The position numbers were made by a program, and so were the translations under genes. Source: Microlunatus parietis (GTDB lineage: Bacteria > Actinomycetota > Actinomycetes > Propionibacteriales > Propionibacteriaceae). From it: a stretch of 64,000 nt of DNA. Numbering within the stretch: position 1 is the first letter of the stretch; each line of letters begins with the position of its first letter. This document shows positions 36,377 to 38,400 of the stretch, one piece after another. The notes beneath the pieces were generated by a model. It had not been told where the DNA came from. It was given only the letters and a program-made list of their open reading frames with translations, and did not search any database. The DNA lies in contig NZ_JACCBU010000001.1 of the NCBI RefSeq assembly GCF_013407955.1, positions 4,030,001 to 4,094,000 of the forward strand, written 5' to 3'.

Positions 36377-36450
36377 GCGGATGTAGTTCAATGGCAGAAC
36401 ATCAGCTTCCCAAGCTGAGAATGCGAGTTCGATTCTCGTCATCCGCTCCA
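36377..36450 (+). tRNA. tRNA-Gly (anticodon CCC)
   Basis: A complete cloverleaf: acceptor GCGGATG/CATCCGC, D-arm with GTTCAATGGCAGAAC, anticodon stem TCAGC/GCTGA around loop TTCCCAA (anticodon CCC), TψC arm GCGAG-TTCGATT-CTCGT, and encoded CCA. It reads GGG codons. Its 3' half is the attachment site of the adjacent island and is regenerated intact by the insertion. Confidence 0.95.
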
Positions 36451-36456
36451 AGATCG
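36407..36456 (+). repeat. Island attachment repeat (tRNA side)
   Basis: A 50-bp direct repeat covering the tRNA anticodon loop to six bases past CCA (TTCCCAAGCTGAG ... CCGCTCCAAGATCG). It is duplicated with one mismatch at 38306-38355. Confidence 0.9.
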
Positions 36457-36495
36457 AAACCCCTAGTGGCAGGCCAAATCGCCACTAGGGGTTTT
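36457..36495 (+). terminator. Strong intrinsic terminator after tRNA-Gly
   Basis: Perfect 14-bp stem AAACCCCTAGTGGC (36457-36470) / GCCACTAGGGGTTT (36481-36494), ten-base loop, then TTTTATT. It also faces the integrase 3' end 16 bases away and may act in both directions. Confidence 0.92.
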
Positions 36496-36510: not shown

Positions 36511-37007
36511 CTAGCCAGTGTGCGTGCCCTCAACGTGCCCCGAACGACGGGAGTTCGCCGGTCGGGCGGTCTTGATCATGGCGTTCAACGACTCGGCGAT
36601 CACCCGGTCCCGGCTGTCACTCCGGTGCTGGTAGACGAGCGCGGCGTCAACGCTGGCGTGCCCCATCCGAGCCATCAGCTCGCGGGTGCTGGCGCCCGAG
36701 ATCGCCGCCAGGTGGTTACCGGTGTGCCGCAGGTCATGGATGTGAATCCCGGCCAGGCCGGCGTCCTTCAGGGCACGTGCCCAGATCTTCGAGAAGTTGG
36801 TCCGGGCCGGCGTCACACCGTACGGTCCGACGAACACGCGACGGAGACCGCCGAGCTCGCCGAAGGTCGCAAAGTGCTGCTCGACCTCGGGAACCAGCCA
36901 CTCAGGAAAGGTCACGGTGCGGATGCCGGCTGCCGTCTTTGGCGCCTTGATCACCTGGCGCGCACCGATCTGGGACACGGCCCGCTCAATCTGCCGGATT
37001 GACCTCT
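36511..37007 (-). pseudogene. Tyrosine recombinase (phage-type integrase), C-terminal fragment
   Basis: The 155-residue open part, starting near IERAVSQIGARQVIKAPKTA, contains the distal catalytic core: HDLRHTGNHLAAISGA (His, Arg), LMARMGHAS (His) and ALVYQHRS (the nucleophilic Tyr). The proximal catalytic Arg, core-binding and arm-binding domains are missing. An in-frame TAG stands just upstream (about 37008). Homology starts abruptly there, at the junction with a GC-rich inverted repeat, so the 5' two thirds were deleted. Position and orientation beside the tRNA fit the island's own integrase. Confidence 0.9.
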
Positions 37008-37105
37008 ACTAGATCAAGGCGCCGGCTCCGCCGGCGCGGCGGCGCGTGTCCTCGCTTCGCTGCGGGCCGCGCCGCTTCTGCATCCGCCTTGGCATTATTG
37101 ATCAC

Positions 37106-38020
37106 ATGATCAGCGACTCGCATCCGGTGCGCCACTACCTTGGCCGTTGGCGCCCCAAGACGTCTGATAGAACGGCGCCGCTCCACACGACGGATCAGCT
37201 GAGTTCGGCCGAAGTCAAGGCGATTCATCACGCGGAGAACGAGCTTCTCGATGCAAACACGAATTCTGCCTACTTCGTCCTACGGGACCAGCGGCGAGCA
37301 TTGGACCTGGTGCTGGCGGACGTCGTCAAGGAGTGGAGCAACCAGGATGCGGAATACATGGCCTTACGCCGGCGTGTCTCAACTGCATTGGAGAATTTTC
37401 TGTCCTCGCTCCGTGCGTTCGACGATAAGACGTGTGCGTCGTTATCCGCAAAATACGGCAAGGAGTCGAAGCCGTACCGAGTCTTCAAGGCTGCATTGAG
37501 CTTGGAATACGACAACCAGGCTGCCTACCGAATCGCGTACAAGCTGAGAAACTTCATGCAGCACGCTGGAACCGTCATGCGACTGGAGATCAACGAGAAA
37601 CTCGACGACTCAGGCGAGAGATCCGTGACCGCCAGCGCGATACTCCCACCGCAGGAGCTTCTGGCCTGGAATGGGTGGGGAAGCACGGTCAAGCGGGATC
37701 TCTCAGCCATGAGCGGGGTAATAGACGCCCAAATTCTGTGCGATCGGGTGACCGACTCGTGCGGAAGGGCGTACGCCAACGCCGTGCTTGCTCAGGAAGC
37801 CGCCTTGAAGGCCGCGGCTGACCTCCTTGTGAGCTATGAAGCGCGTGGGCCGCAGCCGATCGATGGCAGGCTAACGATACTTACCCTTCCTGAGCAGGTC
37901 GATGGTCTCAAAGGCTCATCGTGGACAGACGTAATGGTTGGCCTCGCTACCGGGCTAGATCGCTTTCTCGCCGAATGCAGGCGTGCAACCGAGAAATACG
38001 GACCCGTTGAAGTTGACTAA
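37106..38020 (+). CDS. HEPN-like protein, island cargo (candidate defence RNase)
   Basis: From ATG 37106 the product is 304 residues, almost entirely alpha-helical and soluble (a GTG at 37046 in frame would add 20 poor residues). I recognise no named family. Residues 145-155 read AYKLRNFMQHAG: Arg148-N-F-M-Q-His153 matches the HEPN RNase signature R-x4-6-H with a polar residue after Arg, placed at the end of a helix. This motif marks RNases of abortive-infection, toxin and CRISPR-associated systems. A second helical region (about 220-300) might be a sensor. Codon use is less GC-biased than its neighbours, consistent with transfer. It has no antitoxin-like partner. Confidence 0.6.
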   Translation: MISDSHPVRHYLGRWRPKTSDRTAPLHTTDQLSSAEVKAIHHAENELLDANTNSAYFVLRDQRRALDLVLADVVKEWSNQDAEYMALRRRVSTALENFLSSLRAFDDKTCASLSAKYGKESKPYRVFKAALSLEYDNQAAYRIAYKLRNFMQHAGTVMRLEINEKLDDSGERSVTASAILPPQELLAWNGWGSTVKRDLSAMSGVIDAQILCDRVTDSCGRAYANAVLAQEAALKAAADLLVSYEARGPQPIDGRLTILTLPEQVDGLKGSSWTDVMVGLATGLDRFLAECRRATEKYGPVEVD

Positions 38021-38305: not shown

Positions 38306-38355
38306 TTCCCAAGCTGAGAATGCGAGTTCGATTCTCGTCATTCGCTCCAAGATCG
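38306..38355 (+). repeat. Island attachment repeat (distal side)
   Basis: TTCCCAAGCTGAGAATGCGA onward, 49 of 50 bases identical to 36407-36456 (C to T at 38342). The 5' half of a tRNA is absent, so this is not a second tRNA gene. Confidence 0.9.
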
Positions 38356-38361
38356 CAGCCC

Positions 38362-38400
38362 TTTGTGGCAGGCATGGCCTTCAGCGACTCTGCGATCACC
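38362..38400 (-). pseudogene. Remnant 3' end of a second integrase
   Basis: GGCATGGCCTTCAGCGACTC then TGCGATCACC parallels the 3' coding region of the island integrase at 36577-36612 (GGCGTTCAACGACTCGGCGA). On the minus strand it encodes VIAESLKAM, matching VIAESLNAM. A CCCTTTGTGGCAGGC block before it parallels CCCCTAGTGGCAGGC at 36459. It lies just outside the distal repeat, as expected for a tandem, older insertion at the same tRNA. Confidence 0.65.

Follow-up and report, generated by a model that had tools for sequence, protein, structure and literature searches.

The window analysed here, a 64,000-nucleotide stretch of the Microlunatus parietis genome (contig NZ_JACCBU010000001.1, positions 4,030,001 to 4,094,000), contains a small island integrated at a tRNA-Gly gene with the anticodon CCC, which is the only tRNA gene that ARAGORN detected in the window (Table 1). 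The island is bounded by two direct repeats that are identical at 63 of 68 bases (92.6%). Between the repeats lie a gene encoding a protein of 304 residues and a fragment of a tyrosine integrase gene. The latter comprises 155 codons and matches PF00589 (E 8.7e-8) and positions 328-455 of the 611 positions of phrog_1 (E 7.8e-22). A sequence-only reading of this locus had described the 304-residue protein as the only cargo of a tRNA island, and the intact reading frame, the RNFMQH motif at residues 148-153, the island setting and the deviant codon use were all found as described. The statement on the cargo holds for genes of normal size: the remaining open reading frames (ORFs) of at least 50 aa between the repeats either overlap the two genes or are no longer than 87 aa, and a very small partner gene may be present among them. 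What remains of the element is an island in decay, in which one gene of normal size is still whole. The same open frame offers an alternative GTG start at 37046, which would yield 324 aa.

The composition of the gene differs from that of its surroundings. Its GC content is 58%, compared with 69% for the window, and its GC3 is 0.69, below the minimum of 0.75 (mean 0.88) among 36 window genes. The codon log-likelihood per synonymous codon was −1.384 for the gene, lower than the minimum of −1.210 (mean −0.871) among these 36 genes, in agreement with the earlier remark that its codon use is unlike that of its neighbors. The gene is of foreign origin and was brought in by an integrative element that has since decayed. 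Directly beyond the right repeat, 28 bp resemble the 3′ end of the integrase gene at 89%, which indicates that the tRNA-Gly site was probably used at least twice; judged from this similarity, this remnant is probably the scar of a second integration, with two successive integrations at tRNA-Gly. In another genome of the genus (G1104), the tRNA site matched the window at 87% over 228 of 231 bases, and the match ended at 36607, approximately 97 bp into the integrase 3′ end. No family member was found in that genome at E 0.001.

Table 1. Features of the tRNA-Gly island and of the protein encoded within it (window positions).
Feature	Position	Strand	Basis
tRNA-Gly (anticodon CCC), intact, island integration site	36377..36450	+	ARAGORN
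Left direct repeat, attL-like: tRNA 3′ part and flank	36407..36474	+	68-bp match to 38306-38373
Tyrosine integrase, C-terminal fragment, N-terminal part missing	36511..36978	-	PF00589 and phrog_1
Member of an uncharacterised family; HEPN-like core predicted	37106..38020	+	ATG start, 304 aa, no internal stop
Predicted HEPN-like core, residues 55-228	37268..37789	+	Predicted secondary structure; span of PDB HEPN matches
Asp107 codon, acidic residue of helix 2	37424..37426	+	Alignment
R148-N149-F-M-Q-H153, R-x4-H motif, end of helix 3	37547..37564	+	Alignment and model
Right direct repeat, attR-like, tRNA-Gly 3′ end	38306..38373	+	Match to left repeat
28-bp remnant like the integrase 3′ end (89%)	38373..38400	-	Directly beyond the right repeat

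The sequence-only reading assigned the protein to the HEPN ribonucleases on account of Arg148 and His153, while cautioning that the motif alone is weak evidence. This caution was well placed, as R-x4-6-H occurred in 76% of 3000 shuffles of the window protein, R[NDH]-x3-5-H in 17%, and RN-x3-H in 1%. The motif by itself was therefore rejected as evidence for HEPN, and its weight comes from the relatives. Ten sequences that had not been picked by their motif were compared, namely the window protein, six relatives found by similarity to it (L002-L006 and L107), two found with phrog_30874 (L008 and L009), and L113, which was found with a family profile (A6) that itself holds pattern-selected members. 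Column 153 was His in 10 of 10 and was the only column identical in all ten, and column 148 was Arg in 9 of 10, the single exception being L005, a masked and incomplete record with Ser. Column 149 contained Asn in eight sequences, Asp in one, and Gln in one, whereas column 107 contained Asp in eight and Glu in two. An acidic residue at position 107 was thus present in all ten of these sequences, and in 28 of 32 overall. Residue 155 is a Gly, as in 29 of 33 aligned sequences, and no HxY follows the motif. In a further comparison, of the window protein with 23 relatives chosen by the pattern (L012 and L024 were omitted as repeats of L004 and L008), His153 was kept in 24 of 24, as were nine other columns, several of which lie inside the search pattern.

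Searches against known families assigned the protein to none of them. The window protein had no credible family in Pfam, PADLOC, or NCBIfam at E up to 1, nor did eight members at E up to 0.1. When 24 members were compared with Pfam at E up to 1, a range in which the HMMER filters drop most matches above about E 0.1, 17 families were matched and none of these was a HEPN model; HEPN_AbiU2, HEPN_Apea, HEPN_RiboL-PSP, and HEPN_Cthe2314 were all absent. Weak matches to DUF6664 (0.056), ZorA (0.0044), AbiEii (0.047), CCCAP (0.0029), and XRN_N (0.0056), each in one or two members, were dismissed as not credible. In a sequence search of the PDB, the window protein had no match at E up to 1 and the family profile none below 0.1. 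Furthermore, hhalign gave probabilities below 1% against shallow templates of HepT (14 of 16 extracted sequences, two fragments having been dropped), Tha-1 (one sequence), HEPN_Apea (two), and HEPN_RiboL-PSP (two). As a positive control, hhalign paired two sub-alignments of the family at 99.9%, and paired them with the single window sequence at 98.0 and 95.6%. A profile match was obtained with phrog_30874, a phage family of unassigned function, in which residues 94-214, including the motif, matched profile positions 87-196 of 279 (E 3.2e-9). The absence of a match to the modelled HEPN families makes this protein a HEPN candidate outside the Pfam, NCBIfam, and PADLOC families scanned. Among the papers searched, none joined pBS32 with HEPN or Microlunatus with HEPN, and the family may have been published before.

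An AlphaFold2 model of the window protein, built with 24 family sequences, had a pLDDT of 89 and a pTM of 0.83. It contained two strands (8-15 and 27-32) and five helices (34-51, 55-77, 84-117, 122-137, and 139-154) up to the motif, followed by a hairpin (159-166/172-180), helices 182-186, 193-201, 208-228, and 231-247, two strands, and two helices. According to the available text of PMC3710099, HEPN domains carry the R-x4-6-H motif at the end of helix 3, the residue after the Arg is typically polar (mostly N, D, or H), helices 2 and 3 are often separated by an insert, and many families, but not all, have an acidic residue, located in helix 2 when present. As read from the model, the core would consist of helix 1 (55-77), helix 2 (84-117), an insert (122-137), helix 3 (139-154), and helix 4 (208-228), with the predicted beta hairpin (159-180) between helices 3 and 4. 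The model of a Flavobacterium relative (L014; pLDDT 91.7) had the same overall order, except that its first two long helices were joined (26-72); R143 and H148 were at the end of a helix (134-149) that is preceded by a helical insert, as in the window model. The models and the alignment thus fit four HEPN traits, namely motif position, an insert between helices 2 and 3, the acid in helix 2, and a polar residue after the Arg.

Structural comparison pointed in the same direction and was suggestive only. The three best VIA-align matches of the L014 model among 975 chains were all HEPN toxins, namely 7ae6 (Z 9.1; 126 of 143 residues aligned, rmsd 3.6), 7ae8 (Z 8.6), and 7ae2 (Z 8.6). With 7ae9 at rank 6, the HEPN toxins spanned Z 9.1-8.2, and the HepT entries 6m6u and 6m6w followed at ranks 19 and 28, and Csx1 at rank 47. 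Unrelated bundles were among the top five at Z 8.4 and 8.3, and from Z 8.4 downward such bundles were tied with several HEPN entries. For the window model, the HEPN toxin 7ae8 ranked third (Z 6.6, 125 aligned, rmsd 5.1), 7ae9 ranked 11 (Z 6.1), and 3jrt, the integron-cassette HEPN protein of PMC3710099 as its available text describes it, ranked 25 (Z 5.3), while the best match was LGN/Inscuteable (Z 8.0). All of these HEPN Z-scores are below approximately 13, a range in which helical bundles may share a common arrangement only; the absence of a family from the VIA-align lists does not exclude it. Foldseek identified nothing below E 0.001 in the PDB with either model, and nothing below 0.001 among viral models. 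The LGN/Inscuteable match of the window model, together with the lack of a profile link to HEPN families and of a significant Foldseek match, would suit a helical bundle unrelated to HEPN, with R-x4-H in a structural role. However, the motif, the polar residue after the Arg, the acid in helix 2, and the position of the motif fit together, and HEPN toxins lead the list for L014; such a bundle is thus quite unlikely, and a HEPN-like fold is probable from these models. The HEPN part of the earlier interpretation is supported on this basis. Neither of the two findings that the sequence-only reading had named as refuting it was made: the predicted fold shows a HEPN-like arrangement of four helices, and Arg and His are retained in the relatives (9 and 10 of the ten sequences, respectively).

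The family is scattered and mobile. Four relatives of the window protein were detected in 395 other genomes of the phylum, and a search of 390 further genomes of its order yielded none. The family profile identified at least five relatives in 395 genomes, with at most four candidates per genome scored, and the phrog_30874 profile identified two in 393 other genomes of the class. A scan of the genomes of 84,980 species with one short motif pattern yielded 25 loci from 37 pattern matches; because the Arg is part of this pattern, the scan is uninformative on the conservation of that residue, and its count of the family is too low. The hosts included Actinomycetota (Streptomyces, Frankia, Micromonospora, and Yinghuangia among them), Bacteroidota such as Flavobacterium, three Pseudomonas, an Ignavibacteriae metagenome-assembled genome (MAG), and a Methanosarcina MAG. 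One actinomycetote locus of the scan (L012) was the same as that found in the phylum search (L004). Among 72,556 plasmid records, 37 contained a member, including 36 from Bacillus (NCIB 3610 among these) and one Rhodococcus plasmid, and the plasmid relatives examined lie among phage-type or plasmid genes. The NCIB 3610 member, EJJ34_RS22820 (L002, 4084-4923), is annotated as a hypothetical protein, carries RNLAQH, and is located near genes for a DNA ligase, a TPR protein, and a terminase. Of 49 pattern matches in viral contigs, two were confirmed, and the one examined is close to the B. subtilis form; a search of viral contigs with a single protein returned no relative.

This distribution bears on the possibility that the protein is a HEPN RNase working for a mobile element instead of defending the host, for example in superinfection exclusion, in maintenance of the element, or in RNA processing. 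The phage-plasmid surroundings of the B. subtilis relative, the match to phrog_30874, and the position of the window copy in an integrase island are all consistent with such a role. On the other hand, tblastn with two family members detected none in 50,697 phage records, and relatives were also found beside restriction-modification (RM), SIR2-HerA, DISARM, and PD-T4-1 genes; an element-serving RNase is therefore considered unlikely.

The genes around the 25 relatives, which were called by a simple script, provided further information on this point. The 124 neighbors within three genes at 23 loci (L020 and L027 were omitted as near-duplicates of L021) matched 205 PADLOC families among 61 proteins and 40 among the other 63 at E 1e-5, whereas 59 window genes used as a control matched four families in at most five proteins; these counts refer to families rather than proteins, many models match one protein, and the control comes from a single region in a single genome. 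Type I RM (an HsdM gene) adjoins the gene in L015, PD-T4-1 and an SspA/DndA-like gene adjoin that in L019, and a NucC-like nuclease gene adjoins that in L028. SIR2 and HerA genes occur just upstream of the L018 gene with one short ORF between, and DrmA (DISARM) is two genes away from that of L034. HamA, AbiTii, ThsB, DrmB, MTase_II, and PD-T7-4 were also among the PADLOC matches listed, without assignment to a locus. In a hand-picked set of ten neighbors, four matched PADLOC and six had no model. Comparison of five neighbors with the PDB by sequence confirmed HsdM at L015, indicated an RTX-like repeat protein at L012, a tRNA-dihydrouridine synthase at L022, and a weakly recombinase-like protein at L024, and gave no match at L017; the neighbors at L012, L022, and L024 are not defensive. 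The presence of defence genes beside several relatives supports the defence role that the sequence-only reading had put forward, which is plausible. As a separate observation, the synthase gene adjoining the Pseudomonas relative L022 (8385-9377) had its best PDB match at E 3.6e-80, and dusA is a known integration site for islands.

The same neighborhoods contained no recurrent partner. Within six genes of the 25 relatives, the neighbors (ORFs of at least 60 aa; L020, L021, and L027 were not compared among themselves) formed eight clusters of related proteins, each from two or three loci and none directly adjoining the family gene. An upstream gene of approximately 300-380 codons in many relatives resembled a partner by size, but BLAST indicated that the encoded proteins are mutually unrelated, and it was discarded. 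As no cluster lies directly beside the gene, no obligate partner was seen, and this lack of a shared immediate neighbor supports the single-gene system that had been proposed, which is likewise plausible.

The abortive-infection HEPN families AbiF, AbiD, AbiU2, AbiJ, and others carry R-x4-6-H, and several occur with RM operons (PMC3710099, available text). HepT (PF01934; 7ae6, 7ae8, and 7ae2) shares R-x4-H with the family and provided the best structural match of L014, but it is a short protein that is paired with an MNT antitoxin, whereas the window protein has approximately 300 aa and no partner was seen. The family had no PF01934 match, and the window protein lacks R-x4-H-x-Y. Besides the two genes, the island contains no free-standing ORF above 87 aa. 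The window protein could still act as the toxin in a toxin-antitoxin system, with an antitoxin that has disappeared or that is a small gene or RNA which escaped notice, given that HepT-type HEPN toxins belong to such pairs and that the truncated island could have lost the partner. However, the eight neighbor clusters hold at most three loci each and none adjoins the gene, and HxY after the motif is missing; this possibility is very unlikely.

The closest parallel is Tha of Staphylococcus phages (Tha-1 and Tha-2), a prophage protein of 301 aa with R265NSIMH270 in Tha-1. In the available text of PMC11087260, Tha is reported to be a non-specific RNase that is triggered by phage tail proteins and has an Abi-like outcome, with H270A as its catalytic mutant and with growth unchanged upon expression from a plasmid. 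The window protein resembles Tha, as described there, in being a single protein of approximately 300 aa on a mobile element with an R-N-x3-H motif. In contrast, the HEPN domain of Tha is C-terminal (184-296 of 301) and follows a predicted N-terminus of low confidence (PMC11087260, available text), whereas the predicted core of the window protein is central, with the motif at 148-153 of 304, beta strands before it, and a hairpin after it. The hhalign probability against Tha-1 was likewise under 1%, with a single-sequence template. Two proteins of HEPN_Apea (PF18739) carry RNYFIH and RNYLTH, like RNYAQH in the family, but hhalign to these two was under 1% and no Pfam HEPN family was matched. One-protein HEPN defence also occurs among the four HEPN systems of DefensePredictor in the available text of PMC13092281, for example DS-11, which combines CBS and HEPN in one protein; the present family has no Pfam CBS match, and this comparison is by description, so that sequence overlap is possible.

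These results suggest that the gene encodes a standalone, metal-independent HEPN-fold endoribonuclease of an uncharacterised family, acting as an abortive-infection effector and derived from the decayed tRNA-Gly element, a reading that we hold to be somewhat probable. RNase activity, a dimer, self-inhibition, a trigger, and an abortive outcome are steps that we infer beyond the predicted fold, with the logic of Tha as a working model for the family. The newly made protein would be inactive, no gene for an antitoxin having been seen. A phage-derived or infection-induced signal would then be sensed outside the four-helix core, and two subunits would bring Arg148, Asn149, and His153 together, with the aid of Asp107, to form an RNase site in the cleft that separates the subunits. 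Cleavage of RNA would stop the growth of the infected cell before phage release. The sequence-only reading had located the sensor in the C-terminal helical half, a placement that is not supported, as helix 208-228 in that half is probably the fourth HEPN helix. In the model, candidates for the sensor are instead the strands at the N-terminus (8-32), the hairpin that follows the motif (159-180), and the variable end.

A broader proposal, for which the chances appear evenly balanced, is that the relatives constitute a HEPN family not described before, whose members are self-sufficient immune effectors encoded by one gene, each a protein of approximately 280-420 residues that both senses infection and cuts RNA. 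Mobile elements would have carried this family into several bacterial phyla and an archaeon. If true, the HEPN defence RNases would gain a widely scattered family that is not modelled in any of the scanned libraries and that has a representative on the B. subtilis NCIB 3610 phage-plasmid. As no shared partner was seen, it also raises the question of how a solitary RNase stays off until infection.

Two further features distinguish some relatives from the window protein. A second R-x4-H (R-x-x-[LI]-D-H) occurs in helix 2 of 14 of 22 aligned members, such as L014, L013, L015, and L018, and from these sequences a composite active site with two motifs per subunit is possible; at this site the window protein has R-A-F-D-D-K, with Lys replacing the second His. 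Furthermore, actinomycete members of approximately 380 residues or more (L020, L023, L024, L028, L030, L031, L033, and L034) share a C-terminal extension with conserved blocks that is absent from the window protein and that possibly functions as a sensor or a partner-binding part.
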